The position numbers and the translations under genes were made by a program. From a virus: a stretch of DNA of 44,413 bases. Within the stretch, counting starts at the first letter, position 1; the number at the start of each line of letters is the position of its first letter. Below the pieces are notes generated by a model that saw only the letters and a list, made by a program, of their open reading frames with translations, ran no database searches and was not told where the DNA came from. This document shows, piece by piece, positions 8,637 to 25,315 of the stretch. The stretch spans positions 1 to 44,413 of the IMG/VR virus record IMGVR_UViG_3300045107_000290; one strand, written 5' to 3'.

Positions 8637-8656
8637 AAAGTTCTCAGGTTTATTTT
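8637..8656. repeat. Leader repeat, copy 1
   Basis: GAAAGTTCTCAGGTTTATTT on the + strand; copy 2 lies at 8873-8892 with one mismatch. Read on the minus strand, each copy stands 40-60 bp upstream of a ribosome binding site (AAGGAG or AAAGGAGGTGAG), so it looks like a duplicated promoter/leader. Confidence 0.5.
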
Positions 8657-8695
8657 GGGCGGGAACCGGCGAACCGCTGCCGGGCCCGCCCGCCT

Positions 8696-8836
8696 TCACG
8701 TGGATTTGCCTACCTCGCCACCGTTACCACGTCCGCGGTGCGAGTGGATCTGAGCCGTAGCGGTCGCGCACCCGAGTAGGGAGACCAGGAGCGTCAATCG
8801 GCGGCGGCTGGATCGTGTAAATGTCAGGGGCCTCAC
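8696..8836 (-). CDS. Small lipoprotein-like secreted peptide, ~46 aa
   Basis: The minus-strand binding site AAAGGAGGTGAG (8844-8833) is followed by an open frame to TGA 8698-8696. The start is uncertain: GTG 8836 lies in the binding site itself and CTG 8827 is at proper spacing. The product has an Arg-rich N-region (SSRRR), a hydrophobic core LTLLVSLL and then GC, a good lipobox. A short His/Gly/Arg-rich tail follows. It resembles Rz1-like or other small phage lipoproteins in plan only. Located between two other minus-strand genes and likely co-transcribed with them. Confidence 0.45.
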   Translation of the reverse strand: MRPLTFTRSSRRRLTLLVSLLGCATATAQIHSHRGRGNGGEVGKST

Positions 8837-8872
8837 CTCCTTTCGTGCAAGGGAAAGTGGGGCGAGGGCGGG

Positions 8873-8892
8873 AAAGTTCTCAGGTTTTTTTG
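8873..8892. repeat. Leader repeat, copy 2
   Basis: Matches 8637-8656 at 19 of 20 positions. On the minus strand it overlaps the last codons of the repeat-protein gene (stop at 8880) and leads into the small lipoprotein gene. Confidence 0.5.
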
Positions 8893-9083
8893 CGCCAGCG
8901 GGCGGCGGCCGCCTTGCGGGCGATCTCGGCGCGGCGCTTGGCGGACAGGGACTGAGCGCGGGCGGCGCCGCCGGCCAAGCCGGCAGTGCGCGAGATCTCC
9001 GCCTTCTCTTCGGCACTCAGTTTCTCCGCACGGGCGAGGCCGCCGAGGCGGCCGAGGGCGACGGCGTGAGGATTCTTGGCCAT
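8880..9083 (-). CDS. Ala/Arg-rich repeat small protein (67 aa), paralogue of the gene at 7346-7600
   Basis: ATG at 9083 (MAKNPHAVALGRLGGLARAE) is preferred over the longer frame to 9122. Two to three units of the form LARAEKLSAEEKAEISRxA end in AAARWRKK. The unit matches the one in the 84-aa protein at 7346-7600, so the two are paralogues about 1.3 kb apart. I recall similar proteins as common unannotated genes in Acidobacteriota. Basic and helical, perhaps DNA-associated; not demonstrated. It is divergent from the early operon, the position a regulator of the 9142 promoter would take. Confidence 0.7.
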   Translation of the reverse strand: MAKNPHAVALGRLGGLARAEKLSAEEKAEISRTAGLAGGAARAQSLSAKRRAEIARKAAAARWRKKT

Positions 9084-9092
9084 CCTGACCGC

Positions 9093-9122
9093 AGCATAGC
9101 ATAGCGCCTTGACAATAATCAA
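9093..9122 (-). promoter_or_regulatory. Putative minus-strand promoter for the 9083 gene
   Basis: On the minus strand TTGATT (9122-9117), an 18-base spacer and TATGCT (9098-9093) precede the ATG at 9083. The -35 is imperfect and the leader would be only about ten bases, so this is tentative. Confidence 0.35.
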
Positions 9123-9141
9123 ACCAGCATCGTCTTTGTGC

Positions 9142-9170
9142 TTGACATAACGCTACACTCGTACTATGCT
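9142..9170 (+). promoter_or_regulatory. Strong sigma-70-type early promoter
   Basis: TTGACA (9142-9147), exactly 17 bases, then TATGCT (9165-9170): a consensus -35 with a good -10. It lies in an AT-rich gap within a high-GC genome and faces the operon 9188-10880. A second TTGACA at 9109-9114 has no matching -10. Confidence 0.75.
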
Positions 9171-9187
9171 TGTCTTAGTGGTACGGT

Positions 9188-9385
9188 ATGTTCACCACAC
9201 AAACCCTGGAGGCGATGGAGATCCTGCTCACGCGGTCGCTGGTGGCGGCGGTGAAGAAGGGAGACGCGGTGCTGGCCGACGTCGGGAAGCTGCGCGAGGA
9301 AGTCGCGCGGCTGGATATGCGGGTGCGCGCGATGGAGCGGCAGCCGCAATGGAAGAGAGGAGGCAACGATGTCCGCGTGGGTTGA
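9188..9385 (+). CDS. Small coiled-coil protein, 65 aa
   Basis: First gene after the early promoter. ATG 9188 would give a very short leader without a binding site. ATG 9215 has GGAGG only two bases upstream. Neither start is certain. The body is a helix/coiled coil (DVGKLREEVARLDMRVRAMERQ) preceded by a mildly hydrophobic LLTRSLVAAV. No family recognised. Its end overlaps the next gene by 17 bases. Confidence 0.55.
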   Translation: MFTTQTLEAMEILLTRSLVAAVKKGDAVLADVGKLREEVARLDMRVRAMERQPQWKRGGNDVRVG

Positions 9386-9692
9386 GTGCAGAGAGTGCGG
9401 CGGCGCCGGGTTCTTCGGGAACGGGCCGATCGCCGAGGCCTGCTTCGCCTGTCACGGCGAGGGCGGCTGCGAGTGCAAGACGGATGACGACGATGCGATC
9501 GCGCTGCGGCTTGAAGCGGAGAAGGATGTGCTGGACCTGATCGACGTGCGGCGGCTGGCCGGCGCGGAGGTCGGGGCGGCGGTGGAGGAGCGGATTCTGG
9601 AGCGGCACTTCGCCGAACTGTTCGACGAAGGCTACCGGATCACGGCGAAGCTTGCGGCGCTCGATCGGGCGCACGATCAGGAGGCGGCGTGA
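9369..9692 (+). CDS. Zinc-binding protein with DnaJ-type CxxCxGxG motifs, 107 aa
   Basis: AGAGGAGG precedes ATG 9369. The N-terminus has CRECGGAG and CFACHGEGGCEC, two CxxCxGxG-like knuckles as in the zinc region of DnaJ. An Asp stretch and a helical C-terminus follow. In phages such proteins are usually small adaptors of unknown target. The last codons overlap the next start (GTGA at 9689). Confidence 0.65.
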   Translation: MSAWVECRECGGAGFFGNGPIAEACFACHGEGGCECKTDDDDAIALRLEAEKDVLDLIDVRRLAGAEVGAAVEERILERHFAELFDEGYRITAKLAALDRAHDQEAA

Positions 9693-9907
9693 GAAAGCCC
9701 GGAAGCGCGCCCCTGGTGCCGGTGCTGCCGGCGGAAGTTTCCGCGGCGCTGCACCGCGTGCTCGGCCTGGCCGAGGCGGAGTTTCGCGGGCTCGGGCGCT
9801 GGGAGCATTTTTGCTGGATCTCGCTGGCGATGTCGTGCGAGGTGAACGTCGGCCGGTTGCTGGCCGTGAAGAAGGAGAACAGGCATGGCGGAAGTGCTGC
9901 GGTTTGA
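9689..9907 (+). CDS. Unknown 72-aa protein
   Basis: GTG 9689 overlaps the preceding stop. The product is helical with VSAALHRVLGLAEAEF and HFCWISLAMSCEV. Two Cys are present but no metal pattern. Its tail overlaps the next gene by 23 bases and contains that gene's AAGGAG site, which fits translational coupling. Confidence 0.55.
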   Translation: MRKPGSAPLVPVLPAEVSAALHRVLGLAEAEFRGLGRWEHFCWISLAMSCEVNVGRLLAVKKENRHGGSAAV

Positions 9908-10475
9908 GACGAACGTGCCCGTAGAGATCGCGCTGGCGTATCCCTGCGGGAAGCTGGTGGAAGGGCGGTACGGCGACCAGTATTACTACTCGCTGGCGGA
10001 CGGGCGGTCGGCCTACGTCGAGCCGGTGGTGGAGCGGAAGCGGCAGGAGTTGGGGATCGGGAAGGGCGAGCCGTTTACGGTCTGCAAGAAGGAGACGCGG
10101 AACGGGAACCGGCGCTCGATCGAGTGGCAGGTTGCGCGAGTGGATCCGGCGCCGGAGACGCCGCTGGCGCGGCAGCTCGAGCAGTCGATCCGGAAGGTGG
10201 AAGAGGCGAAGAAGCCGGCGATTGCGGCGCCGGCTCCCGTGGCTTCCGGAGCTCCGGAGAACACCGGAAACAACCAACAGACCGATGGTAGCGCGCCGGC
10301 GCCGACGCTGCTGGCGATGTCGCTGCGGGCGGCGATCGACGCGGCGCGGGACGCGGAGCAATACGCGGCGCGGCAGAACTACTCGCTGCGGTTCACGTCG
10401 GAGGATCTGCGGGCGATGGCGCTATCGCTGTACATCCAGGGCGCGCGGGAAGGGGGTGCGGCATGGCGGCACTGA
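9885..10475 (+). CDS. Conserved-looking early protein, possible OB-fold ssDNA-binding type, 196 aa
   Basis: AAGGAG lies seven bases before ATG 9885. The first ~85 residues are beta-rich (LRFETNVPVEIALAYPCGKL, then EGRYGDQYYYSLADGR, FTVCKKE, IEWQVARV). An acidic/Pro/Ala linker (residues ~95-135) and a helical C-terminus (AAIDAARDAEQYAARQ) follow. A beta barrel, linker and tail plan in an early operon suggests an ssDNA-binding or recombination-annealing helper. This is inference only; no signature motif confirms it. Confidence 0.6.
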   Translation: MAEVLRFETNVPVEIALAYPCGKLVEGRYGDQYYYSLADGRSAYVEPVVERKRQELGIGKGEPFTVCKKETRNGNRRSIEWQVARVDPAPETPLARQLEQSIRKVEEAKKPAIAAPAPVASGAPENTGNNQQTDGSAPAPTLLAMSLRAAIDAARDAEQYAARQNYSLRFTSEDLRAMALSLYIQGAREGGAAWRH

Positions 10476-10621
10476 TCGCGCGGCTGTACGGGCTGCTGTT
10501 CGGCTGCCGACACTCGAGGGTGGGGCGGCCGATCACGCTCGGCGGGCGGACCTACCAGCGCTGCCTGGAGTGCGGCGCCGCGGTGGCCTGGCCGAGGAAG
10601 GGGGCGTCATGGAGCGCGTAA
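10463..10621 (+). CDS. Small zinc-ribbon-like protein, 52 aa
   Basis: ATG 10463 with AGGGGGT upstream, overlapping the previous gene. The pattern FGCRHSRVGRPIT ... YQRCLECG matches a small phage zinc-knuckle type (C-x-H then C-x2-C). The function is unknown. Confidence 0.6.
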   Translation: MAALIARLYGLLFGCRHSRVGRPITLGGRTYQRCLECGAAVAWPRKGASWSA

Positions 10622-10752
10622 ACGGACACGCGGCGCTGGCGGGCGGGGGCCACTTCGCCCCCGCGGCCGCGGCGGCGGTCGCGCTCGGTGCCGCCTGGCG
10701 CGCAATAGAGGAGCTAAAGCTGCTCCGGAAAGAGATGGGGCTGGCAAAATGA
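10609..10752 (+). CDS. Small Ala-rich protein, 47 aa
   Basis: ATG 10609, preceded by GAGGAAGGGGG, overlaps the previous stop. An Ala-rich hydrophobic stretch (PAAAAAVALGAAW) may insert in the membrane; a charged tail KLLRKEMGLAK follows. Coupled by ATGA (10749) to the next gene. Confidence 0.5.
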   Translation: MERVNGHAALAGGGHFAPAAAAAVALGAAWRAIEELKLLRKEMGLAK

Positions 10753-10880
10753 GGCAGGCCTGGGGAGAAGCGGCGGGCGGAGCGCCTTCGATCGCGGAGG
10801 CGGCGGCGCTGTGGCTACTGGTCGCGGCGGCGGCGGTTGCGCTCGCCTGGGGCATCTGGCGATTGTTTTCCATGGCGTAG
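10749..10880 (+). CDS. Small single-span membrane protein, 43 aa
   Basis: ATG 10749 overlaps the preceding stop (ATGA). One clear membrane segment (LWLLVAAAAVALAWGIW, residues ~22-38) and a short tail. Last gene before the terminator. A role in superinfection exclusion or host membrane effects is possible but not shown. Confidence 0.55.
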   Translation: MRQAWGEAAGGAPSIAEAAALWLLVAAAAVALAWGIWRLFSMA

Positions 10881-10906
10881 CTGATCTGGCTGTTCGGGGG
10901 GGAAAG

Positions 10907-10944
10907 GGGCGGCGGGCCTGGGGCGGGGCCTGGCCGCCCTTTTT
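10907..10944 (+). terminator. Rho-independent terminator closing the early operon
   Basis: GGGCGGC (10907-10913) pairs with GCCGCCC (10933-10939), and five T follow (10940-10944). It separates the 9142 operon from the integrase. Confidence 0.75.
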
Positions 10945-10959
10945 CTTTGCCAGCGGGGC

Positions 10960-10969
10960 AATTGGTCAA
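10960..10969 (+). repeat. Direct repeat AATTGGTCAA, copy 1
   Basis: The same ten bases recur at 11036-11045, where they form part of the palindrome at the integrase start. Paired sites 76 bp apart next to an integrase may be arm-type or operator sites. Confidence 0.4.
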
Positions 10970-11037
10970 TACAGTGAAAAAACCGCGGGGCGGACGGCTC
11001 GTAAGTGGTGGATTTTCAGTAAGGGGAGGGCCCTGAA

Positions 11038-11637
11038 TTGGTCAAAATACCTATTTTGACCAGTTCGGGGCGGCGGGCGGTGGATGATCGTAAGTATTTG
11101 ACACAAGAGGAGTTGGATCTACTGTTTCGGGCGGTCGAAAAGAGCGGCTCGAAGCGCGACCTGGCGATGTTTACGCTGGCCTACTGGCGCGGTCTGCGAG
11201 CGTCGGAGGTGGGGCGGCTCCAGGTTGCGGATTACCGGACGGCGGCGAACCGGCTGTATGTGCGGCGGCTGAAGCGGAGCCTGGCGGCGGAGTTCCCGCT
11301 GGGGCCGCAGGAGCAGAAGACGCTGCGGGCCTGGCTGCGCGAGCGCGGGGCGGCGGCCGGGCCGCTGTTCCCTTCCCGTCGGCGGCGCGGGATCTCCCGG
11401 CAGCAGCTCGACGTACTGATGCGCCGTTACGGCGCCGCGGCGGGAATCCCGGAACACCTGCGGCACTTCCACACACTAAAGCACTCGATCGCCACCCACC
11501 TACTCGAGAAGGGCGCCGACGTGGCGGAGGTGCGGGACTGGATCGGGCACGCCAACATCCAGAACACGATGATCTATGCGCAGCTCACTAACCCGCGGCG
11601 GGACGCGGCGGCGCGGCGGATCTACGACGCGAGGTGA
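11038..11637 (+). CDS. int: Short tyrosine recombinase / integrase, 199 aa
   Basis: TTG 11038 follows AAGGGGAGGG. The protein is essentially only the catalytic domain: R54 in RGLRASE, K79 (RLKRS), H145-x-x-K148 (HTLKH), H171 in WIGHANIQNT, and nucleophile Y180. The second catalytic Arg of the usual HxxR is Lys, as I recall for a subset of short integrases. The length fits FimB/FimE-like or SAM-domain-lacking recombinases rather than lambda-type integrases of about 350 aa. Predicted to integrate/excise the phage DNA. The start codon lies in a perfect palindrome, suggesting control by a bound protein. The 3' end overlaps a convergent gene by 16 bases. Confidence 0.85.
   Translation: MVKIPILTSSGRRAVDDRKYLTQEELDLLFRAVEKSGSKRDLAMFTLAYWRGLRASEVGRLQVADYRTAANRLYVRRLKRSLAAEFPLGPQEQKTLRAWLRERGAAAGPLFPSRRRRGISRQQLDVLMRRYGAAAGIPEHLRHFHTLKHSIATHLLEKGADVAEVRDWIGHANIQNTMIYAQLTNPRRDAAARRIYDAR
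11039..11062. repeat. Perfect 11-bp inverted repeat at the integrase start
   Basis: TGGTCAAAATA (11039-11049) and TATTTTGACCA (11052-11062) around two bases CC. It contains the TTG start codon. Candidate autorepressor operator, or part of attP. Confidence 0.65.
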
Positions 11638-11858
11638 CTTTCCGTTAACGCCTCACGGAGTTCGCGGCGGGCCACTTCGAGGTCGATGTACGCATCGAGG
11701 ATCGGCTCCTTTAGGGCGCGCAGCGCGGCGCCAAGTTCGGGCGTATTCTCGCCATCGAGCACGCGGTCCCACAGCGCCTGCTCCTCGTGGATCAGATGCT
11801 CCAGACGCGCGAAGGCCTCCAGGCGCTGGCGGGTGAGCTGGGCGAATGCAGTTGACAT
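11622..11858 (-). CDS. Small helical protein convergent with the integrase, 78 aa
   Basis: Minus-strand ATG at 11858 (MSTAFAQLTRQRLEAFARLE) is chosen over the longer frame to 11990 because the extension is low quality. The product is an acidic three-helix-like protein (HLIHEEQALWDRVLDGEN, DLEVARRELREAL). Its 3' end overlaps the integrase by 16 bases. An excisionase or integrase partner would fit the location, but no HTH is visible; function unknown. Confidence 0.6.
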   Translation of the reverse strand: MSTAFAQLTRQRLEAFARLEHLIHEEQALWDRVLDGENTPELGAALRALKEPILDAYIDLEVARRELREALTESHLAS

Positions 11859-12016
11859 CGCCCCATGATAATGGCAAGCAAGCAGGAATACCAGGGCCGT
11901 CTGTAGGTGTCTGCAAACCTCGGGCGCGGCAGAGTGCGCGGCTCCCGCGCGGCGGACTGCCGGGGACCCCCGCGCAGGGCTGCCACGCATCTATTATTCT
12001 CTTAAAGCAAGGGAGA
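11859..12016. other. Control region between the minus-strand gene and the replication block
   Basis: A lower-GC stretch of 158 bases. It holds a GCAAGCAAGC repeat (11874-11883), a degenerate copy of the dispersed motif (11902-11915, TGTAGGTGTCTGCA), and near its end ATTCTC (11995-12000), which pairs with GAGAAT (12013-12018). No convincing gene is seen here. A candidate place for attP or the lysis-lysogeny switch. Confidence 0.4.
11902..11915. repeat. Degenerate intergenic copy of the dispersed motif, TGTAGGTGTCTGCA
   Basis: Right arm CTGCA exact, left arm TGTAG has one change. The only copy in a non-coding control region. Confidence 0.4.
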
Positions 12017-12151
12017 ATGGATGCAAGCAAGCGTGCGGAAATTCCGCTTGCCTTTCGCGCGTTGTCGGGTATATACTCGGGAGCGTTTAAGCGAGCTGAC
12101 CGGAATAGGGGGCCGCCGCCGTCGCGCGAGAGACCGGCCCTCGAACAATGA
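12017..12151 (+). CDS. Putative 44-aa leader gene of the replication block
   Basis: ATG 12017 follows AAGGGAG. The product begins MDASKRAEIPLAFRALSGIY and is basic. ATG 12021 in another frame (MQASVRKFRLPFARC) shares the site, so the frame is not settled. TGA overlaps the next ATG in an ATGA (12148-12151), which supports this frame. However, the best promoter match of the region lies inside it, so it may not be expressed from there. Confidence 0.35.
   Translation: MDASKRAEIPLAFRALSGIYSGAFKRADRNRGPPPSRERPALEQ
12048..12077 (+). promoter_or_regulatory. Candidate promoter for the replication block, with adjacent operator
   Basis: TTGCCT (12048-12053), 18 bases, TATACT (12072-12077). Directly upstream is a 13-bp palindrome GCGGAA-A-TTCCGC (12035-12047) and a GCAAGCAAGC repeat (12023-12032), so a repressor could block the -35 side. 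Confidence 0.5.
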
Positions 12152-12282
12152 AACGCCGCCAGGGGTGGCTGCGAAACCATTTCCCCCAACGGCGTCCAAA
12201 CAACGATGCCAGCGTACCACTCGCCCACTCAGAAAACAAGAACCGATTTTCCCGAAGGCTCACCTTCCGAAGTCGACAGTAA
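12148..12282 (+). CDS. Putative basic 44-aa protein
   Basis: ATG 12148 overlaps the previous stop. Product MKRRQGWLRNHFPQRR... is Arg/Asn-rich and basic, ending at TAA 12280-12282. Base composition is less GC-rich than elsewhere. No family recognised. Confidence 0.35.
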   Translation: MKRRQGWLRNHFPQRRPNNDASVPLAHSENKNRFSRRLTFRSRQ

Positions 12283-12330
12283 GCGTCGGCAATATGCATT
12301 ATCGGAAGTCGCTGAGCCCAGGAGGGGCCT

Positions 12331-13800
12331 TTGAGCCCCGCGGCAGCGGCCTTCGCGCCGCCGCCTCCGCCGCCTCCGCCGCCTCCGGCAGAACCGTCGA
12401 AGCGCGTGCTGGCGCGCGGGTTCTGCCGCACTCCGCATAGCTTTTTCCTGCGCCTCCCACGCGAGCTGACGTACACCGAACTGGTCTGCGTGGGACTGAT
12501 CCTCGACGCCACGGTCGGGTGGCAGCGCGATCGCGCGTGGATTCCGATCCGCCAATTTCAGGAGGTCGCGAACAAGTCGCGGCGCGCCGTGGAAGAGGCG
12601 CTCGATCGGCTGCGCGAGCGCGACCTGGTCAAGTGGACGGGCGGCGCCGGCGAGCGGGAGTACTCGCTGGCTCCGGACCTGCTGCCGTCCCAAGAGCCCG
12701 GCGAGCGCGCCTACGGGAAGTGCCACTCCTGCGGCGCGATCGGCGACGTCGAGGTCGAGCCGGGCGGCGTAGCTCTGGTCCCTCACGCCTTCTTCCGCAA
12801 GCTCCCGAAGGCCTGTACCCACGCCGAGTGGGTGATCGTCGGCATGGTGATCGACGCCACGCTAGGGTGGCAGCGGGAATGGGCGGAGATCTCCAACGAG
12901 GAGTTCTGCGCGGCGACGGGGTTGTCGCTGCGCGCGGTCCAGCAAGCCACCGGCGCGGCCGAGGGCAAGGGCCTGATAGAGGTTGAGGAGCGCTCCGGCC
13001 GCTGCTCGCGCTACCGCGTGGTGCCAGAGAGCTTCAGCGGGCTCGAAGCGCGGGCTGCCCGAACGGTCGAGCGGCGCGACAAAAGCGAACAGGCGGCGAA
13101 GCAGGAGCCTAAGGAGTCCGCGCAAGAGGCTGAGCCGCAAGAGGCGGCCCCTGCAGTGGAGTGCCATGGGCGCAAAGTCTTCGCCCGCTGTCTCGCGTGC
13201 CGGCAAGTCGGGCTGGTGACGCTGCGGGAACAACCACCATCTACCACCGGGCCGCCGAGGGCGCGCCCGCCAGGCTCGGGGGCGGCCACGAACCCCAGTT
13301 TCCCACCCCGAGACGCGCGCAGACGGACGCAGACCGTTCCGGCATCGGCGGATGCTGCGTCCGCGCGCGTGGTCCCGGGCCTCGAAGCCTATCTGTGGCG
13401 GTGGAGCGAAGTGCTCCGCGAGCCGGTGACGGCGGCGTTCGTGGCGCGGATTTCGGCGGAGCTGGGCGACGCGGATCTGGGGGACTTCGCGGAGCGGTGT
13501 GACCGGCGAGCGGAGTACATCCAGCGTTCGGGCCAGGGGCTCGCGGTCTTACTGCCCATGGCAAGAGATGCGGCGCAGCTCGCGGCGCGGCGCGCGGCGG
13601 CGGGCGAGCGGGAGCCGGAGCCAGACGAGGAAGCCGCGCCGGCTTGTGCGGAGTGCGGCGGCGGCGGGCTGATCGGCGCGCGGCCTCGCGAGTGGATGCT
13701 CGGCGAGGTGCGCGCGGTGGTCGAGAGCGGCCGCGCCAGGTGGTGCTCCTGCGAGAGCGCCGCTTTCTGGCGCGAGCTGATGGGGCTTGAAGGGAGGTGA
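12331..13800 (+). CDS. Lambda O-like replication initiator with tandem winged helices, 489 aa
   Basis: TTG 12331 stands behind AGGAGG. After a Pro10 run, two copies of the same winged-helix domain follow: residues ~38-102 (TYTELVCVGLILDATVGWQR) and ~153-218 (THAEWVIVGMVIDATLGWQR). The (D)AT-x-GWQ core resembles the R-TxGW core of phage replication protein O N-terminal domains. A CHSCG knuckle (131-135) separates them; CLAC (~287) and CAECGGGG...WCSC near the end add further zinc-type motifs. Predicted to bind the origin and recruit the host helicase; one domain per half-site is conceivable. Iterons are not obvious inside the gene. Confidence 0.7.
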   Translation: MSPAAAAFAPPPPPPPPPPAEPSKRVLARGFCRTPHSFFLRLPRELTYTELVCVGLILDATVGWQRDRAWIPIRQFQEVANKSRRAVEEALDRLRERDLVKWTGGAGEREYSLAPDLLPSQEPGERAYGKCHSCGAIGDVEVEPGGVALVPHAFFRKLPKACTHAEWVIVGMVIDATLGWQREWAEISNEEFCAATGLSLRAVQQATGAAEGKGLIEVEERSGRCSRYRVVPESFSGLEARAARTVERRDKSEQAAKQEPKESAQEAEPQEAAPAVECHGRKVFARCLACRQVGLVTLREQPPSTTGPPRARPPGSGAATNPSFPPRDARRRTQTVPASADAASARVVPGLEAYLWRWSEVLREPVTAAFVARISAELGDADLGDFAERCDRRAEYIQRSGQGLAVLLPMARDAAQLAARRAAAGEREPEPDEEAAPACAECGGGGLIGARPREWMLGEVRAVVESGRARWCSCESAAFWRELMGLEGR

Positions 13801-13877
13801 TGCCGAATGGTCGATCCTATCGTCATCCCGCCGTTCTAGGCGGCATTCCTCGCCGGCGCGGGCCGGCGGAACCGTAG
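13800..13877 (+). CDS. Possible 25-aa peptide
   Basis: ATG 13800 overlaps the TGA of the initiator gene and follows GGGAGGTG. Product MPNGRSYRHPAVLGG... is too short to judge. The rest of the 237-base gap to 14037 holds a pyrimidine-rich run (13964-13980) and the inverted repeat at 13992-14030; nothing else is recognised. Confidence 0.25.
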   Translation: MPNGRSYRHPAVLGGIPRRRGPAEP

Positions 13878-13991
13878 CGCGTGAACCAACGGCGCCGGGG
13901 ACGGACCTCGGCATCCTGCGAGATCAGGGACGCTTTGTCGGCTCGCGGGCCCGGGCGCGGAGGTTTTTCTCCTTCTCCCTCATGCGACGGG

Positions 13992-14030
13992 CCCGCGGAA
14001 CTACTGCTTCGATGCACGGCGTTCCGCGGG
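13992..14030 (+). promoter_or_regulatory. Stem-loop that can mask the parB-like ribosome binding site
   Basis: CCCGCGGAAC (13992-14001) and GTTCCGCGGG (14021-14030) are perfect 10-bp arms with a 19-base loop. The right arm runs into GGGAGGCG, the binding site for ATG 14038. It may be an RNA control hairpin or a DNA operator. Confidence 0.55.
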
Positions 14031-14037
14031 AGGCGTT

Positions 14038-15528
14038 ATGGAACTGGGGCTGGGTGCCCGTGCTGCGAACGGCGCAACGCCCGTTGTGCTGACGGGACCC
14101 GATCAAACTCAATTGCAGGTAGTCAAGCTCGCTTCGATCCAGGAGTCGAGCACGAATCCACGCAAACATTTTGATGCCGCGAAGCTCGACGAGCTGGCGG
14201 CGACGCTGAAGACGATGGGGCTGATCCAGCCGCTGGTCGTGCGGCCTTGGCCCTGGGAGAAAGGCGCGGCGGAATACGAACTGGTGGCCGGAGCGCGGCG
14301 CTACCGCGCGGCGAAGAAGGCGGGCCTGATAGAAGTGCCCGTCATCGTGCGCGCGCTCACCGACGAGCAGGCGCTGGAGATGCAGGGCGTCGAGAACCTG
14401 CAGCGCGAGGACCTGAACGCCCTCGAAGAGGCCGAATGGCTGAAGGCGCTGCGCGAGTCCGGGCTCGCGGTGGCGAAGATCGCCGACAAGATCGGCAAGT
14501 CGGCCGAACACGTGTACGCGAGGCTGAAGGTAGCGGAGGGGCTGATCGCGGAGCCGAAGAAGGCGCTGGCGGAGGGGCGGATTACGGCGGGGCACGCGAT
14601 CCTGATCGCGCGGCTGCAGCCGCAACTGCAACTGAAGGCGCTCGAAGCGTGCTTCGACTGGCAGAAGGAACTGTGGCCGGTGCGGGTGCTCGAGGACTGG
14701 CTCGACGAACGCGTGCGGCTAGACCTCAAGGATGCACCGTTCCCGGTGAAGGACGCGGCGCTGCTGGCGGAGGCGGGCGCCTGCACTGCATGCCCGAAGC
14801 AGACCAAGGGCCGGTGCGAAGATCCGGACTGCTACCACCGGAAGGAGCGTACATTCTTCGACGCGAAGCGCGCGGCGCTGCGCAAGGGCGGCGAGTTCGT
14901 CGAGATCACGACCGGCTGGAGGAAAGCGCCGAAGGGAGCGCTGGGGCCCGGCCGCTGGCAGGAGGCGACGAAACGCGAGCCAGGCGCGAAGCCTGCGCTG
15001 GTAGTGGGCGGGCCGGAGGCGGGCTCGGTGAAGTGGGTGAAGGTCAAGCCGGAGCCGAAGAAGTTGGAGCCGCGCGACCGGCGGAAGGAGCAGGTGATCC
15101 GAGAGGCGAAGCGCGACCGGGAGCGCGCGGTGCGCGTGGCGATCCTGGACGCGGTGCTGGAGCGCGTGAAGGCGCCGCTGGTGCGCGAGGACATCGAGGT
15201 GATCGCGCTGGCGGGGTTGGACGATCGGGACGGAGAGTGGCTGCTGGAACGGCACGAGGTCAAGGACGCCAAGGAACTGGCGGCGCGGCTGCCGGAGATG
15301 AAGCCACAGGAGTTGGCGCACCTACTGGTGGAGATGGCCCTGGCGGACGAGCTCGACGCCTGGAACGTCGAGGGCAAGACGCCGCTGCTCGACGATTTGG
15401 CGAAGCGCTACAAGGTCGACGCGGCGAAAATCCGCGCGCGCGTCGGGGCGGAGCCGAAAGACGCGGCGAAGGCGGAAGCGGCGAAGCCGGTGCAGGCGTC
15501 TGCAAAGGCGGCGGGAGGTGCGCGATGA
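14038..15528 (+). CDS. ParB-like CTPase/DNA-binding protein, 496 aa
   Basis: ATG 14038 behind GGGAGGCG. It has the ParB N-domain: NPRKHF (40-45), LxELAATLKTMGLIQPLVVRP (box I), YELVAGARRYRAA (80-92) and ENLQREDLNALEEA (119-132). A HTH follows at ~143-165 (LAVAKIADKIGKSAEHVYARL). Four Cys (249, 252, 260, 265) form a zinc-type motif as in mobile-element ParB proteins. The motif normally GERR is GARR; in Caulobacter ParB the corresponding Glu is needed for CTP hydrolysis, so this protein may bind CTP as a clamp without turning it over (inference). No ParA gene is present. It could organise phage DNA, act as a plasmid-like centromere protein or regulate transcription. The 3' end carries a copy of the dispersed 14-bp motif. 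Confidence 0.85.
   Translation: MELGLGARAANGATPVVLTGPDQTQLQVVKLASIQESSTNPRKHFDAAKLDELAATLKTMGLIQPLVVRPWPWEKGAAEYELVAGARRYRAAKKAGLIEVPVIVRALTDEQALEMQGVENLQREDLNALEEAEWLKALRESGLAVAKIADKIGKSAEHVYARLKVAEGLIAEPKKALAEGRITAGHAILIARLQPQLQLKALEACFDWQKELWPVRVLEDWLDERVRLDLKDAPFPVKDAALLAEAGACTACPKQTKGRCEDPDCYHRKERTFFDAKRAALRKGGEFVEITTGWRKAPKGALGPGRWQEATKREPGAKPALVVGGPEAGSVKWVKVKPEPKKLEPRDRRKEQVIREAKRDRERAVRVAILDAVLERVKAPLVREDIEVIALAGLDDRDGEWLLERHEVKDAKELAARLPEMKPQELAHLLVEMALADELDAWNVEGKTPLLDDLAKRYKVDAAKIRARVGAEPKDAAKAEAAKPVQASAKAAGGAR
15491..15504. repeat. Dispersed 14-bp motif, TGCAGGCGTCTGCA
   Basis: In the 3' end of the parB-like gene. Identical over GTGCAGGCGTCTGCAA (16 bases) to the sites at 18269 and 21122. 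Confidence 0.65.
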
Positions 15529-15737
15529 AGGGCGGGCGTGCCAAGGGAATGCGGGCAGGGCCGATCGAGTGCGTCGTGCTGACGATCGGGCAGGCTCCGG
15601 AGGGGCTGTTCTGGGGGCGGCGGACGCACGGCGTGTATCCGCAGCGGCTGCAAGAACTCGAAGCGGCGGGGCCGGGCGCGATGCTGCGCTGCGCGTCGGT
15701 GAAGGCGGGGCCGCGCGCGCTGGGAGGTGCGGCATGA
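15525..15737 (+). CDS. Unknown 70-aa protein
   Basis: ATG 15525 overlaps the parB-like stop (ATGA). The product has ECVVLTIGQAPEGLFWGRR and ends GALGGAA-like after an Ala/Pro/Gly region. No family recognised. Ends in ATGA overlapping the next start (15734). Confidence 0.5.
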   Translation: MKGGRAKGMRAGPIECVVLTIGQAPEGLFWGRRTHGVYPQRLQELEAAGPGAMLRCASVKAGPRALGGAA

Positions 15738-15886
15738 GCGCGCGCAACTGGGACCGCGGGATGCGCTGGCGCAGGGAACGGTTGCGCCGGCGGGTGACGC
15801 GCTGGCGGCGCGCGATTCGACTGCTGCGGCGCTCCGGGCTGGTGCCGGGCGATCTGCTGAACCTGCTGAGGGAGGCCGGATGCTGA
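15734..15886 (+). CDS. Arg-rich 50-aa protein
   Basis: ATG 15734 overlaps the previous stop and is preceded by GGGAGG. About a third of the residues are Arg (RWRRERLRRRVTRWRRAIRLLRR), forming a strongly basic amphipathic helix. A short LVPGDLLNLLREAG helix follows. Likely a nucleic-acid binder; function unknown. Confidence 0.5.
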   Translation: MSARNWDRGMRWRRERLRRRVTRWRRAIRLLRRSGLVPGDLLNLLREAGC

Positions 15887-15899
15887 CCGGGCGCTCCTC

Positions 15900-16112
15900 G
15901 TGCTCCTGCCGCTGCCATGGGTCCAGGCGGTGCTCGGCGCGGTGTGGTCGCACCGGCGGTGCTTCGTGTGCGATCGCATCGGCCTGTGCGCGCACCGGGA
16001 GCCGGCGGTCGAGCTGGCGATTCAGGAGAGCGTGCTGCGGGCGGCGGAGCGGAAGCCGATGGGGCGCGCGGGCGAAGCGCTGGCGGCCGCGGCCGCGGAG
16101 AGGAGGGCGTGA
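15900..16112 (+). CDS. Small Cys-containing protein, 70 aa
   Basis: GTG 15900 is the first usable start in the coding-like frame; no clear binding site, so coupling to the previous gene is assumed. A hydrophobic N-terminus (LLPLPWVQAVLGAVW) is followed by CFVCDRIGLCAHRE and an Ala/Glu helix. The stop overlaps the next ATG (TGATG at 16110). Confidence 0.45.
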   Translation: MLLPLPWVQAVLGAVWSHRRCFVCDRIGLCAHREPAVELAIQESVLRAAERKPMGRAGEALAAAAAERRA

Positions 16113-16408
16113 TGCAGTGCTGCAAGTGCGGGGGACACGCCGACGGGGACGCGTACCGATTCGGGGACACGCCGGGCGGCGTGGCGATCGTGCCGGCTAC
16201 CTCAACGTGGAAGCCGTTCCGCGAAGGGCTTCCGGTGGACTGGCGGCACGTGTGCGGCCCAGGCTGTCTCGCGGAGGTGGTGTCGGAATGGGCGCTGACG
16301 CGGAGGGCGTTCCGAGCGGCGGCGGGGCAGAATACGATCGAGCGGGACCGCGCGGCGGTGCAGAGCCTGGTGCTGGACCCGGCGCTCGTGGACGAGCAGG
16401 ACGACTAA
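16112..16408 (+). CDS. Zinc-finger-like protein, 98 aa
   Basis: ATG 16112 behind GAGAGGAGGG. CCKCGG at the N-terminus and HVCGPGC near residue 50 make a C-x2-C / C-x3-C zinc pair with a beta-rich stretch between, like a treble-clef. An acidic tail ends at TAA 16406-16408. One of several tiny zinc proteins in this block; function unknown. Confidence 0.6.
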   Translation: MQCCKCGGHADGDAYRFGDTPGGVAIVPATSTWKPFREGLPVDWRHVCGPGCLAEVVSEWALTRRAFRAAAGQNTIERDRAAVQSLVLDPALVDEQDD

Positions 16409-16422
16409 AGGGGGCGGCGGTG

Positions 16423-16593
16423 ATGGAGGTTCACGAGATCCGGATTCAGGCCGTGCCCGGTGGCGTGTCCATCGAGTTCGCCGACGTCGCCCTGCTGTTG
16501 AAGGTGCGGGAGGCGAAAGACGTTGCCTGGGCGCTGCTGCGCGAGGCGATTCGGGTGGAAGATCGGAGCGAGGCGGTTGCCGATCGCACGTGA
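16423..16593 (+). CDS. Unknown 56-aa protein
   Basis: ATG 16423 after GGGGGCGGCGG. Short beta-beta-alpha-like product (VHEIRIQAVPGGVSIEFADV, then a Leu/Ala helix). Overlaps the HNH gene by 17 bases. Confidence 0.5.
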   Translation: MEVHEIRIQAVPGGVSIEFADVALLLKVREAKDVAWALLREAIRVEDRSEAVADRT

Positions 16594-17194
16594 GCTGCGC
16601 CACCTTTACCGCACGCCGGAGTTTCTGGCGGCGCGGGCCCGGGCCCGGGCTCGTGCTGGCGGACACTGCGAGTGGTGCCGGAAGCCCGAGGGGCATGGCG
16701 TTTGGGTGGTTCGCGACGGGACGGGGCGCTGGAGCTTCAGCGGCATCCTCTGGTATTCGGATCGCGGGCTGCCGTCGCCGCGGCCGCGGGAGTCGGCGGT
16801 GCGGATCCGCGTCAAGCTCGGGACGGCGCACCTCGACCAGAACCCGGCGAACAACGCCGACGACAACCTGGCGATGCTCTGCCAGCGGTGCCACTTGGTC
16901 TACGACGCCCCGGCGCACCGCCAGACGGCACGGCTTCGGCGCGATCGCGCGACGGGGCAGCTCCGGCTGGAACTGGCGCGGCGGCCCGCGCTCGATCCGC
17001 TCGATAAGCTGATCGCCGAGCAGCGCGAGGCGTACCGGGCGTACGCCGTGGGGTCTCCGGGCGCCCGGCTGTGGATGGCGGACCTGGTGGGCGAGGAAGT
17101 GATGCTGCGCGGGGAGGCGCAGGCGAACGGTGAAGCTGAGAAAACTGGCGTGGGCGGCGGTGCTGACCGCGGCGCTCGCGCAAACGGGGCGTGA
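16577..17194 (+). CDS. HNH endonuclease, ~205 aa
   Basis: TTG 16577 (LPIARELRHLYRTPEF) is chosen since the upstream part of the frame overlaps another gene. CEWC (31-34) and CQRCH (102-106) bind the structural zinc. The catalytic core is AHLDQNPANNADDNLAMLC with H85, the Asn pair at 92-93 and H106. Phage HNH nucleases next to terminase genes help genome packaging (HK97 gp74 type). This one lies one gene upstream of the small terminase, which fits that role. A long basic C-terminus follows; its last ~20 codons overlap the next gene and may be less constrained. Confidence 0.8.
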   Translation: MPIARELRHLYRTPEFLAARARARARAGGHCEWCRKPEGHGVWVVRDGTGRWSFSGILWYSDRGLPSPRPRESAVRIRVKLGTAHLDQNPANNADDNLAMLCQRCHLVYDAPAHRQTARLRRDRATGQLRLELARRPALDPLDKLIAEQREAYRAYAVGSPGARLWMADLVGEEVMLRGEAQANGEAEKTGVGGGADRGARANGA

Positions 17195-17393
17195 CATCCC
17201 GCCGAACGACTCACCGGACGGGACGCACCAGGGGCAGCCGCGGTGGTGCCAGAACTACGCGGATCAGCGCGGCTACCGTCCGAACTGCAAGTGCCGGCGG
17301 GATTGCGCGGAGCGGCCGCGGCGCGAAGATGTGAGCTGCCGGGTGCACTGCCGGAAGGACGCTTGCAAGTGCAATCACGGCTGCGACAGCTAG
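17130..17393 (+). CDS. Secreted cysteine-rich protein, 87 aa
   Basis: GTG 17130 lies inside the HNH gene. The N-terminus is a clean signal peptide (MKLRKLAWAAVLTAALA, cut before QTGRD). The mature ~70 residues hold nine Cys arranged C...C-x-C...C...C...C...C-x-C...C with many Arg/Lys/Asn, and no known enzyme motif. Outside the cell or in the periplasm such a protein would be disulfide-bonded or metal-binding. Unusual for a packaging region. A role in exclusion or envelope binding is speculation. Confidence 0.6.
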   Translation: MKLRKLAWAAVLTAALAQTGRDIPPNDSPDGTHQGQPRWCQNYADQRGYRPNCKCRRDCAERPRREDVSCRVHCRKDACKCNHGCDS

Positions 17394-17495
17394 GCCTTCC
17401 CCCATCTCTGCTGTAAGGCAAGTACCGCAGGTCCATAGCCGCAACAAAGTAAACCACTTCCCCGCCCCGGCGGGCTAGCCGCGCGCGGGCGTAGT

Positions 17496-17996
17496 GTGTC
17501 GATTCTTAAGAACGTGGGGCGGGTGATCTCCATGCCGAAGGCCGTATCGCGCGGCCGGCCGAAGGGCAAGCCTGGCGCGGCGAGCGGCCGTCGCGAAGGC
17601 CGGCGGCAGGCGATCGCGGCGGGCGTCGTGGCCGGGCGGCCGATCGCTGAGATTGCGCGCACGCAGGGCGTCTCGCGGTCCTGGGCGTCGCGCGAGGCGA
17701 ACGCCCCGCAGACCAAGCTGCTGATCGCGGAGCTGCTCGACGCGCGGCGCGGCCAGGTCGAGAAGCTGGTGGACCAGGCGCTGAAGGCGATGGGCGACGC
17801 GTTCGGCGCGAAGGAGCTGGGCCAGCCGGATCACCGGGTGCGGCTGCTGGCGGTGAAGCGCGTGCTGGAGCTGGCGGCGGCCGGGCGGCGCGGCGACGGG
17901 GACGAAGGGGTTCAGCAAAGGGGGGAAATCACGTGGGAGATGTTTGTGCGGCTGCGCGAGCGCGTGGTGGGCGCGGCGGGTGCTGACCGAGGCTGA
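17496..17996 (+). CDS. terS: Small terminase subunit-like HTH protein, 166 aa
   Basis: GTG 17496 or ATG 17532 (MPKAVSRGRPKGKPG) is the start. A basic tail (GRPKGKPGAASGRREG) leads to a HTH: AIAAGVVAGRPIAEIARTQGVSRSWASREA. The segment QVEKLVDQALKAMGDAF and DHRVRLLAVKRVLEL is the helical oligomerisation part seen in small terminases. Role: recognises the packaging site and brings in the large subunit. It is separated from terL by a sigma factor gene, which is odd. Its end overlaps the sigma start by 17 bases. Confidence 0.65.
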   Translation: MSILKNVGRVISMPKAVSRGRPKGKPGAASGRREGRRQAIAAGVVAGRPIAEIARTQGVSRSWASREANAPQTKLLIAELLDARRGQVEKLVDQALKAMGDAFGAKELGQPDHRVRLLAVKRVLELAAAGRRGDGDEGVQQRGEITWEMFVRLRERVVGAAGADRG

Positions 17997-18525
17997 GCGG
18001 AACCGGAACGCGCTCGTCGAAGCGTATCTGCCGCTGGCGCGGAAGCTGGCGGCGCGGGCGAAGCGGCGATTGCCTGCTTCGGTGGAGCTCGACGACCTGG
18101 TCGGCGAGGCCTGCGTGGGGCTGCTGGAGGCGGCGTCGCGCTACGACGAGACGAGCGAGGTGCGGTTCGGCGTGTACGCGGTGCGGCGGATCTGGGGCGC
18201 GATGATCGACCGGCACCGGCGGGCGCACTACCGCTTCGAGACGCATGAAGCGCTGCCGCCTAGCGGCGTGCAGGCGTCTGCAATGCCCGACCACGACGCG
18301 CGGATCGACGCGGCGCGCCGGACGGGCGTGGTCGCGGGGGTGCTGGCTGCGCTGCCGGAGCGGGAGCGGCGGGTGCTGGTGCTGCACTACCGCGACGAGC
18401 TGAGCCTGACAGAGATCGGCGCGCGCACCGGCTCCGGGAAAGACCGGGCGCGGTACGAGCGGCGGCGCGGTCTCGAAGCGGCGCGGCGGGAACTGGCGGC
18501 GCGCGGGATCCGGCGCGCGGCGTGA
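17980..18525 (+). CDS. Phage sigma-70 family factor, 181 aa
   Basis: GTG 17980 (MLTEAERNRN) fits the family N-terminus. Region 2 spans residues ~9-85: LVEAYLPLARKLAARA, ELDDLVGEACVGLLEAASRYD (core binding), FGVYAVRRIWGAMIDRHRR (-10 recognition). Region 4 is at ~122-172: LPERERRVLVLHYRDELSLTEIG, then a recognition helix GSGKDRARYERRR that departs from the usual SESRVSQIHxRA. No region 1.1 or clear region 3; size is near FliA/WhiG types. Predicted to direct host RNA polymerase to late promoters. Placed between the terminase genes with overlaps at both ends. Contains an exact dispersed-motif copy (18269-18282). Confidence 0.85.
   Translation: MLTEAERNRNALVEAYLPLARKLAARAKRRLPASVELDDLVGEACVGLLEAASRYDETSEVRFGVYAVRRIWGAMIDRHRRAHYRFETHEALPPSGVQASAMPDHDARIDAARRTGVVAGVLAALPERERRVLVLHYRDELSLTEIGARTGSGKDRARYERRRGLEAARRELAARGIRRAA
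18269..18282. repeat. Dispersed 14-bp motif, TGCAGGCGTCTGCA
   Basis: Inside the sigma factor gene, in the linker between regions 2 and 4 (VQASA). Confidence 0.65.
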
Positions 18526-20255
18526 GCGCGGAGAAGACGCCGCGGCAGGTCGTCGAAGAGATCTACAACGGCTGGCAAGACCACGCGCGGTGGTGCCGGG
18601 AGTGCCTCTCGATCCGCGACAAGCGCGGCGCGAGCGTGCCGCTGGAGCTGTGGCCGGCGCAGAAGAAGCTGCACGACGCGATCGAGCGGCAGCGCAAGGC
18701 CGGCAAGCCGGTCCGCATCTGCTTCCTGAAGGCGCGGCGCGTTTCGGTGTCGGTGGCGGCGGCGGCGGAGATCTTCCACGAGGTGCCGTTCCAGGCGGGG
18801 CAGCACGGCATGATCGTCGCGCACGACCTCGACTCCACGAAGGAGATCTTCGACTACTGCCAGCAGTTCCAGGAGAGCTACCGGCCGTTCGGCGGCATGA
18901 TCCGGCTGCCGGCGGCGGTGAAGAGCAACGAGCGGAAGCTCGAATGGGAGAACGGCAGTTGGATCAAGGTCCAGACGGCGAACAACCTCAAGGCCGGGCG
19001 CGCGTCGAGCCTGCGTTATCTCCAGCTCGACGAGTACGCGTTCTGGCGCGACGCGCGGACGCTGATGACGGGTCTGCTGAACACCGTGCCCGACGACAAG
19101 GATACGGCGGTGTTTGTCATCTCGACGGCGAACGGCGTGGGCGGACCTTTCCACGAGCTGTGGCAGCAGGCGCAGCAGGGCGACACCGAGTGGGTGGCGG
19201 TGTTCTTCGCCTGGTGGGAGCACCCGGAATATGTCCGCGACGTGGAGGGGCCCGAGGATGTATTCGAGCGGTCGCTCGGCACGATGAAGACGCGCTACGG
19301 CGACGAGCTGGCGGAGCGCGCGAAGTACAACCTGACGCTGAAGCAGCTCGCGTGGCGGCGCTGGGCGATCGACAACAAGTGCCAGAAGTCGGTGGCGCTG
19401 TTCCGGCAGGAGTACCCCGGCTCGCCGGAGGAGGCGTTCCTGACGTCGGGGCGGCCGCGGCTGAACCACGAGGCGCTGGGGCGCATGGCGATCGTGCGGG
19501 AGCCGCTGCGGGGGTTCCTGGAGTGGGTGCGCGTGGGGCTGCGGGAGCAGGTGGTGTTCACACCCGACGAGCAGGGGCCGCTGTGCGTGTACCGGCGGCC
19601 GGAGCCGCGGCGGCTGTACTGCATCGGCGCGGACACGGCGACAGGGAAGGACTCGAACGACGGCAAGGGCGGCGTCGAGGATCCGGACTGGTCGGTGGCA
19701 ACGGTGATCGACGCGCTGACCGGCGAGCAGGTTGCGAAGTACCGCGAGCGCGTGGAGGAGCCGGTCTTCGGCGAGCTGCTCGCCGCGCTGGGCCACTGGT
19801 ACAACCGTGCGTTTGTGACGCCCGAGTCGAACAGCTACGGGCGGGCGGTGATCGCACGGCTGCTGGACCTGGAGTATCCGCCGTCGCTGATCTACCAGCA
19901 GGACCGCGAGGCGCACGACCGCGAGAGCACGTCGCTGAACAAGCTCGGCTACTACACGTCGGAGGTGACGCGGCCGCAGCTCGTTTCGGCGCTCGACGCG
20001 GCGATCCGCGAATATGCCGTGCTGATCCGGGACGCGAACACGCTGTCGGAGTGCCTCACCTTCGTGGTGAAAAGCAATGGGCGGGCGGAGGCGCAGAACG
20101 GCTGCCACGACGACGAGGTCTTCGCGCTGGCGCTGGCGGTGATGGGGCTGCGGCAGATGCCGCGCACGATGCCGAAAGAAACGGCGCGCGCGCCGGCGCG
20201 AGCGCTTCCGCAGCGCTACGGGCGCGGGCGATTATCCCAGCGTGGAAGGGGTTGA
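18522..20255 (+). CDS. terL: Terminase large subunit, 577 aa
   Basis: GTG 18522 overlaps the sigma stop (GTGA). ATPase: a deviant Walker A KARRVSVS (70-77), Walker B YLQLDE (166-171) followed by YAFWRD, and coupling motif STAN (201-204). RNase H-like nuclease: Asp in IGADTATG (~371), Glu/Asn in PESNSYGR (~435) and Asp pair in CHDDEV (~530). It pumps DNA into the prohead and cuts it. The Walker A lacks the usual Gly-Lys-Ser/Thr form, as in some terminases with a KxRQxGxS variant; here Ser replaces the Gly. Start and length are typical of the family. Confidence 0.9.
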   Translation: MSAEKTPRQVVEEIYNGWQDHARWCRECLSIRDKRGASVPLELWPAQKKLHDAIERQRKAGKPVRICFLKARRVSVSVAAAAEIFHEVPFQAGQHGMIVAHDLDSTKEIFDYCQQFQESYRPFGGMIRLPAAVKSNERKLEWENGSWIKVQTANNLKAGRASSLRYLQLDEYAFWRDARTLMTGLLNTVPDDKDTAVFVISTANGVGGPFHELWQQAQQGDTEWVAVFFAWWEHPEYVRDVEGPEDVFERSLGTMKTRYGDELAERAKYNLTLKQLAWRRWAIDNKCQKSVALFRQEYPGSPEEAFLTSGRPRLNHEALGRMAIVREPLRGFLEWVRVGLREQVVFTPDEQGPLCVYRRPEPRRLYCIGADTATGKDSNDGKGGVEDPDWSVATVIDALTGEQVAKYRERVEEPVFGELLAALGHWYNRAFVTPESNSYGRAVIARLLDLEYPPSLIYQQDREAHDRESTSLNKLGYYTSEVTRPQLVSALDAAIREYAVLIRDANTLSECLTFVVKSNGRAEAQNGCHDDEVFALALAVMGLRQMPRTMPKETARAPARALPQRYGRGRLSQRGRG

Positions 20256-20868
20256 AGGGCTGAGCCGCTGGGAGACGCTGGCGCGGAGCGCGGCGGCGCC
20301 GGATTGCCATCGGTGCGAGGGCTCGGGGTTCGCCTACCACCGTTTGTGCGACTGCGCCGAGCGGGGCATCTATCGCGCCTGTCTGAAGCGATACCTGATG
20401 TGCCGCTACCGGAGCCAGCACTCGTGCTCGAAGACCTTCCTGGCGCGGGGGCAGGCGCGGAGCGGACAGGCGTCATGGTCGCGGCCGATTGAGGAATACG
20501 CAGCGGATTTCGAGCTGGTGGCGCGGCGGGTGCTGGGCGAGGCGGGCTACCGGCGCTGGCGGAGGCACGAGATCGACGGGGAGCCGTGGACGAAGTCGAC
20601 GCTGGGGCGGGTGCACTTGTACCAGTGGCTGTACCGGGCGCAGGGCGAGCTCGGGCGAGCGTTCGCGTGCATCGAACCGTATCCGCTCTATCCAGTGGAG
20701 CACTATTTCTCGGCGACGGACCGCGGGCCGAGGGAGCCGGGGCCGGGGATCGCGCTGGCGCGGCGGAGGCCCGCGCCGCTGCGGGCACCGCTGGCGCCGG
20801 CGGAAGTCGTGGAGTTGGAGGTCAAGGGCGATGACGTACCGCGAGTACTTGCAGCACGTGCGGCGTGA
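20242..20868 (+). CDS. Cys-rich putative regulator, 208 aa
   Basis: GTG 20242 overlaps terL by 14 bases. The N-terminus has CHRCEGSG ... CDCAERGIYRACLKRYLMC, a zinc-type cluster. The C-terminal half has EYAADFELVARRVL and a HTH-like run STLGRVHLYQWLYRAQGELG followed by EPYPLYPVEHYF. I recall this ending from unannotated proteins of Acidobacteriota. Zinc cluster plus HTH suggests a DNA- or RNA-polymerase-binding regulator, perhaps antiterminator-like (inference). It heads the structural block. Confidence 0.55.
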   Translation: MEGVEGLSRWETLARSAAAPDCHRCEGSGFAYHRLCDCAERGIYRACLKRYLMCRYRSQHSCSKTFLARGQARSGQASWSRPIEEYAADFELVARRVLGEAGYRRWRRHEIDGEPWTKSTLGRVHLYQWLYRAQGELGRAFACIEPYPLYPVEHYFSATDRGPREPGPGIALARRRPAPLRAPLAPAEVVELEVKGDDVPRVLAARAA

Positions 20869-24310: not shown

Positions 24311-25315
24311 ATGACGACGGTGGGCGAGCAGAGGCTGCTGGTGATTGCAGTCGGGTGCAACGGGATCGAGCCCTCGGCTTCGGTGCTGCAGCGCGGATAC
24401 GACCTGACGCTGGGCGACGCGGGGGGCTCGCTGAACGACGTATACCGCAAGCTGTCCTGGGGGCAGATGTGGTTTGCGGGCCAGGTGGTCGGCGTCGGCA
24501 TCCAAGCCGCTCTGAATTGCGACCTGGTGTTCGCGCCGGGGCATCCGATGTGGGCGATTGACGACGCGCTTCGCGCCAAGGGAATCGACCTCGCCAGCTA
24601 CACGCGGCGGCTGTACTCGATTCCGGGGTTCTGCACGTCCGCGGATCGCGGCTTCCCTTCCCTTACCGTTGGCGGCATCACTTTTTCGGCTTCGATTCTC
24701 TCGCTCGGGGACGGCTGGGGGAACATCGCGCACGAAATGGGGCACTGCCTCGGCATGACTCACGCCGGCACCTGGAATCCGCTGTCGGACCGCGGTGACA
24801 ACGGAGACCTGATGGGCTCCGGAGTGCCGATGCTGAACGCGCCGCACAAGATGCAGCTCGGGTGGTGGCGGCCGGAGCAGGTGATCGACGTCACGCAGGA
24901 AGGCGACTACACGATCTCGCACCATGTGCTGGCCAACACCGGGGTGATGGCGCTTCGCGTTGGGCCGTGGATCGTCAGCTACCAGCAGCAGCTGACGGAC
25001 GCAATCAAGGCCATCTACCCGTCGATCACGGGCGGAGCGTCGATCCATACCCTGGTCAACGGCATCGACACGCGGCTGGTCGACACGCATCCGAATGACG
25101 GCCTCGCGTTTCTCAGCGCGCCGCTGACGGACGGGAGCGTCTTCCGCGACACGGCGAACTCGATCGAGATCGAGCAGCTATCGCACACGGACAGGGAAGT
25201 CAGGCTCAGGGTGCGACTCCACCTGACGACGCCGACGCCGGATCCGACTCCGGCGCCGGCGCCCGGGCCTGGCAAACCGCATCCTCCTCATCCGAAGCGA
25301 GGGGGAATCTCGTGA
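24311..25315 (+). CDS. M11 (gametolysin-type) zinc metallopeptidase, 334 aa
   Basis: ATG 24311 directly follows the previous stop. The zinc site HEMGHCLGMTH has H141, E142, H145 and H151 (HExxHxxGxxH, metzincin). Downstream RGDNGDLMGSG supplies the Met-turn (M168) and NAPHKMQLGW is the short block typical of M11 peptidases. No signal peptide is visible, so it acts in the host cell or as a virion part. The C-terminus ends in a Pro-rich tail (residues ~310-334). Third-position GC is lower than in the neighbours, suggesting acquisition. It could process head proteins, degrade host envelope or matrix proteins, or help lysis. Confidence 0.8.
   Translation: MTTVGEQRLLVIAVGCNGIEPSASVLQRGYDLTLGDAGGSLNDVYRKLSWGQMWFAGQVVGVGIQAALNCDLVFAPGHPMWAIDDALRAKGIDLASYTRRLYSIPGFCTSADRGFPSLTVGGITFSASILSLGDGWGNIAHEMGHCLGMTHAGTWNPLSDRGDNGDLMGSGVPMLNAPHKMQLGWWRPEQVIDVTQEGDYTISHHVLANTGVMALRVGPWIVSYQQQLTDAIKAIYPSITGGASIHTLVNGIDTRLVDTHPNDGLAFLSAPLTDGSVFRDTANSIEIEQLSHTDREVRLRVRLHLTTPTPDPTPAPAPGPGKPHPPHPKRGGIS

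Follow-up and report, generated by a model that had tools for sequence, protein, structure and literature searches.

A sigma-70 family factor encoded between the terminase genes of a probable Acidobacteriota phage, a candidate switch for late transcription

The window, meaning the whole stretch of DNA analysed here, comprises 44,413 bases (positions 1 to 44,413 of IMG/VR virus record IMGVR_UViG_3300045107_000290). Its terminase region lies on the + strand, where a putative terminase small subunit gene (terS, 17496-17996) is followed by a gene for a sigma-70 family factor of 181 amino acids (17980-18525), the terminase large subunit gene (terL, 18522-20255; PHROG 2, E 5e-30), and a gene for a conserved protein combining a zinc motif (CxxCxGxG...CxC) with a sigma4-like helix-turn-helix (HTH) (20242-20868). 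The sigma gene overlaps terS by 17 nt (17980-17996) and terL by 4 nt (GTGA, 18522-18525), in agreement with an earlier note on this DNA, which had placed a sigma factor between the two terminase genes with overlaps on both sides. Its reading frame starts at GTG 17980, giving the 181 residues, or alternatively at TTG 17944, and stops at 18525; no Shine-Dalgarno sequence was clear enough to choose between the two starts. The assignment of the upstream gene as terS is putative and rests on its position, its syntenic relatives (families A3/A5), a model with an HTH and a helical hairpin, and weak fold matches; no terminase profile from Pfam or PHROG was found in it. In this model an HTH is joined to long helices, and the structures whose matches reach beyond the HTH are the phage small terminases 2ao9, 7uxe, and 6w7t, with Z scores of only 5.1-6.6.

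Both conserved regions of the sigma factor are clear, as the earlier note had claimed, and both score above the curated Pfam cut-offs. Region 2 (sigma2 domain; 18013-18225, + strand), which is nearest to FliA/WhiG by FliA alignment, matches Sigma70_r2 over residues 12-82 (E 2.4e-15, 56.5 bits against a cut-off of 24), and region 4 (18340-18477, + strand), with a diverged recognition helix, GSGKDRARYERRRG, matches Sigma70_r4 over residues 121-166 (E 7.3e-8, 32.2 bits against a cut-off of 24.1). Between them lies a linker without region 3 (18226-18339, + strand), where the predicted model shows a dip to low pLDDT. The protein also matches PHROG 351, "RNA polymerase sigma factor" (E 1.5e-18), and its closest solved structure by sequence in a PDB search is FliA (E 8e-22). 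An AlphaFold model, built on an alignment of 17 sequences, has a pLDDT of 90.5 and consists of two compact helical domains joined by a flexible linker. The modelled sigma2 superposes on the N-terminal domain of SigE (Z 12.6, 1.2 A, 77 residues), and the modelled sigma4 superposes on known structures at 0.9-1.8 A, with 0.9 A over 57 residues for SigF region 4. On profile and model evidence, the gene encodes a genuine sigma-70 family factor with the layout sigma2-linker-sigma4; these profile scores and the conserved synteny described below exclude a chance resemblance. Such a protein would be expected to bind core RNA polymerase and direct initiation.

The kind of sigma factor is less simply described, since the nearest kin by sequence are group 3 factors and the layout is that of group 4. 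FliA/WhiG models, including TIGR02479, and general sigma-70 models were matched by all 17 sampled family members. The window sigma scores highest on FliA/WhiG, yet at 94.3 bits it reaches about half the cut-off of 189.6 bits, and it passes the superfamily model (81 against 42.9 bits). Region 3, expected of a group 3 factor, is absent from the window protein, and Sigma70_r3 was matched by only one of the 17 members, weakly (E 0.007); across the family, regions 2 and 4 are separated by a linker of only 37-60 amino acids. FliA and WhiG are the best sequence match for region 2 as well as for the profile of the whole family, and some relatives share the SRxxQL helix, but the window protein differs in the missing region 3, the low score, the unlike helix, and its phage encoding within a terminase operon. 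Compared with ECF factors (group 4), it shares the size and the two-domain sigma2-sigma4 layout, but its sequence is nearer to FliA/WhiG than to ECF-specific models, and the helix of a host ECF factor, SEEAAKNCLFR, is unlike its own. The protein most likely descends from, or is closest to, the FliA/WhiG branch. A tree with FliA, ECF, and RpoD factors from host MAGs was poorly resolved and placed the phage sigmas inside no host FliA or ECF clade; this tree was dropped as a source on their origin for want of resolution. Within the family, mean pairwise identity is 34% in region 2 and 21% in region 4.2; conservation is highest in region 2, which contains the DDL core-binding stretch.

Direct searches with the window sigma found no relative in viral contigs or, by tblastn, in the INPHARED phage collection, and relatives were instead reached through TerL, after which a sigma profile was run on the TerL loci. 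TerL relatives, 42-53% identical, occur in viral contigs and also in MAGs whose annotation is Acidobacteria, Bryobacterales, or Terriglobia. Besides the window, 12 distinct loci have a sigma gene placed immediately between terS and terL, at a distance of about 260 bp or less (L002, L004, L005, L006, L007, L012, L051, which is the same as L138, L052, L080, L131, L132, and L136), making 13 with the window. Locus L003 starts within a sigma gene immediately before terL, the spacing between sigma and terL is about 600 bp in L011 and L053, and the sigma lies 2.4-4 kb upstream of terL in L008 and L019. In the TerL tree, every sigma carrier falls inside one Acidobacteriota clade of 30 rows with support 100/100. 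Other TerL relatives (L010, L013-L017, and L054) have no sigma; six sigma-less loci form one nested subclade together with L011 and L053, a placement that fits loss or replacement of the sigma better than repeated gain. The terS-sigma-terL order is conserved and probably ancestral across the whole phage clade. The earlier note had suggested that the gene is timed with packaging, for which "second gene of the late operon" is the better wording.

The sigma ORFs stay open at 16-38% identity to the window protein and are full-length in nearly all members, and region 4 is poorly recognisable in L007. In L006 (1358-1889) a frame break, either real or a sequencing error, splits the gene. Purifying selection on the sigma is modest, with pN/pS of 0.53-0.80 compared with 0.26-0.37 in terL. 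The phage in contig L052 has bacterial genes at either flank, with a protein kinase gene to one side and GH92 and cytochrome c oxidase genes to the other, and is therefore an integrated prophage; contig L080 carries a GGDEF/EAL gene near one end. Since the window carries an integrase gene (11038-11637), its phage is probably temperate like L052. The relatives lie in Acidobacteriota, and the window is taken to come from a virus that infects Acidobacteria of soil and water.

The recognition helix of the window protein, GSGKDRARYERRRG, is unlike those of all host sigma factors sampled, which include the FliA types NESR(I/V)SQIHK and LHESRISQLKS, the ECF helix SEEAAKNCLFR, and the RpoD helix TRERIRQIEAK. 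The claim that this helix departs from host types thus stands for the window protein but does not extend to the family, because several relatives (L002, L011, L053, L131, and L051) retain an SRxxQL-like core as in FliA. Variation in this part is also seen between L008 and L019, which are 98.4-99.9% identical in DNA over most of their shared stretch. Their sigma genes (1243-1866 in L008 and 3381-3926 in L019) encode proteins whose first 82 residues, through the end of region 2, are the same but for one, followed by diverged versions of the linker and region 4. The surrounding DNA also switches at this point, and 99.75% identity resumes about 2 kb before terL. The pair is a natural domain swap in which linker and sigma4 have been replaced on a constant sigma2. 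Because the late DNA is 99.75% identical despite the change of sigma4, reading of the -35 element may not need sigma4, or the promoter may lie within the swapped part. Separately, the TerL gene of L019 (7950-10736) carries an insertion of 355 amino acids with intein-like ends (starting CLTAETRV... and ending ...ILTHN), which is absent from the near-identical L008.

In a codon-based gene map of the window, the + strand genes from terS onwards form a single block with hardly any gaps, which reaches the record's end and runs on from base 1 to 6750 if the record ends join. One reading frame spans the end and the start of the record (44222-44413 and 1-411), joining in frame, and there is no end repeat; the record probably represents a genome that is either closed and circular or permuted. 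Sizeable gaps in the late block are few (17394-17495, 29193-29282, 40496-40610, and 43662-43724), and the first of these, the non-coding gap before terS, is a candidate late promoter site on the + strand, in which no host-type promoter was found. The scan for host-type promoters was crude, and those of Acidobacteriota may differ; it found four on the early + strand (6700-17600) against 0.5 expected, among them TTGACA-17-TATGCT (9142-9170) and TTGCCT-18-TATACT (12048-12077), whereas the + strand of the late block holds none and its - strand two, at 25.7 and 27.7 kb. Among the other phages, a comparable contrast is seen in L051, whose early promoters are strong; no such promoters at all occur in L131, and L136 is mixed. 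The contrast between early and late regions supports a non-host late promoter.

The promoter itself was sought in several ways. A FliA-type box, TAAA-N15-GCCGATAA, has no match in the window, and the gap before terS holds only sites with three mismatches. The shared box upstream of late genes that would go with the earlier note's account was found neither among the seven late gaps of the window, where shared words and gapped pairs did not exceed shuffled sequence, nor upstream of terS in 13 phages, where an EM motif search gave likelihoods about equal to those of dinucleotide shuffles. Two candidates were set aside: an 8-base EM motif, AAAnGAAA, which rose slightly above six shuffles and looks like plain A-richness, and a GC-rich 3+4 gapped pair in the late gaps, which was matched by one of 20 shuffles. 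As a separate observation, kept as a lead, the related phages L051 and L131 share a conserved ATCATTATTNATA at 190-235 bp before terS; it is single-copy in each and has no match beyond chance in the window. The negative result on a shared late box is weak evidence, since standard motif searches also failed for phages phiEco32 and 7-11 (PMC4331800). The private late promoter set proposed in the earlier note is therefore plausible for a + strand late unit lacking host-type promoters, although no shared box was found; and because promoter-sized gaps in the late block are few, the "set" may amount to a single promoter or a few.

Taken together with the gene order, these features make it probable that the protein is a phage sigma factor, encoded second in a long late operon, that redirects host polymerase to late transcription. 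Early genes would be transcribed from host-type promoters, and read-through or a weak promoter would start the late unit, with terS and the sigma among its first genes. The sigma would then bind host core RNA polymerase and lead it to one or more phage-specific promoters of the late unit, comprising terS, sigma, terL, head, and tail genes (the part of the record beyond about 17.5 kb and, if it is circular, 1-6.75 kb as well), possibly boosting its own synthesis through feedback. The integrase and the integrated relative L052 indicate a temperate phage, which would need a late switch. This role is favoured because all sigma carriers fall in one fully supported TerL clade, because their sigma ORFs stay open despite low identity, and because the late unit is near gapless and one-directional; it is weakened because no box was found, the promoter scan is crude, some relatives have no sigma, selection is modest, the contrast in L136 is not clean, and the late DNA of L008 and L019 is nearly the same although their linkers and sigma4 domains differ.

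Most of the phage sigma factors known to drive late genes come from T4-like, SPO1-like, and phiEco32-like phages. In Bacillus subtilis, Xpf acts on the late operon of PBSX, and its gene lies just before the PBSX terminase genes, compared with a position between terS and terL for the window sigma. Xpf, the PBSX positive control factor, resembles the window protein in general features, being small, linked to a prophage, and built of sigma2 and sigma4 (PMC10141391), and belongs to another host phylum. In phiEco32 and 7-11, structural genes use phage-sigma promoters with host core polymerase and early genes use host promoters (PMC4331800), which is the likeness proposed here; the window sigma matches no phage record in INPHARED by tblastn, and the phiEco32 box is of the TAATGTATA type, whereas the window was searched for the FliA type and for shared motifs. 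Phage T4 cannot do without gp55, nor SPO1 without gp28/gp34 (PMC9429907); T4 gp33 is a sigma4 mimic that serves as coactivator for gp55 (PMC2988020). These T4 proteins are likewise phage-specific late factors, but the window sigma carries sigma2 and sigma4 on one chain, and the zinc/HTH protein encoded after terL may be the counterpart of gp33.

The zinc/HTH protein belongs to family A6, which has invariant Cys and Gly residues, is present in 13 distinct loci, the window among them, and has no Pfam match and no significant PHROG match. It is rather unlikely that this protein, as a Q antiterminator-like factor or a sigma4-type coactivator, mainly controls the late genes and leaves the sigma a minor or helper part. 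Its gene directly follows terL in ten sigma-carrying loci and lies between terS and terL in the sigma-less L017, its C-terminal HTH aligns with region 4 of the sigma family (hhalign probability 69%, E 4e-5), and two members weakly match an antitermination Q PHROG (E 0.24). However, the match to known antiterminators is nowhere significant, no member was found in the sigma carriers L002, L132, L136, L011, and L053, and both domains of the sigma are complete. The protein may be a partner regulator of the sigma; a role as sigma4-type coactivator, like that of gp33, or a Q-like role is a lead. A fuller version, which we regard as tentative and doubtful, is a two-part Acidobacteriota late switch around terL, in which a FliA-derived sigma without region 3 and a zinc sigma4-like coactivator would feed back on their own operon, with specificity diversifying fast as linker and sigma4 are exchanged while sigma2 stays constant, the pattern seen in L008 and L019.

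There is little likelihood that the sigma steers host polymerase to host genes, or to early or middle phage genes, instead of the late operon. Such targets would fit the lack of a late box, and sporulation-like sigmas of phages do act on host programmes (PMC9429907), but the location inside the packaging operon is conserved and the early region is already served by host-type promoters. Least probable of all is a degenerate sigma with no role in transcription, whether decaying or kept as a DNA-binding helper in packaging: its fast evolution, the hardly recognisable region 4 of L007, and the broken frame of L006 point that way, but region 2 with its DDL stretch is the best-conserved part of the family and the ORFs are full-length in nearly all members.

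A conserved sigma inside the terminase operon of temperate Acidobacteriota phages, acting as the proposed late switch, would add to the known kinds of late sigma factor and offer a late-transcription system open to experiment in a phylum that has been little studied, along with possible orthogonal sigma/promoter pairs; the sigma4 swap between L008 and L019 is natural material for how specificity evolves. A literature search that covered few subscription papers found no earlier report of such a sigma. Elsewhere in the window, a small ORF rich in cysteine (17130-17393), which may encode a signal peptide, overlaps the end of an HNH gene, and a gametolysin-type (M11) peptidase is encoded downstream of the portal gene (24311-25315). 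A protein of the non-contractile tail sheath TIM-barrel family is encoded at 40611-43661 (Pfam E 1.4e-17), and a protein of 1757 amino acids at 1477-6750 has no Pfam or PHROG match. Two small proteins encoded on the - strand (7350-7600 and 8880-9083) carry GRxGGxARAxxLxAEER repeats and are apparent paralogues, and the non-coding DNA near their genes contains two copies of a direct repeat, GAAAGTTCTCAGGTTT.
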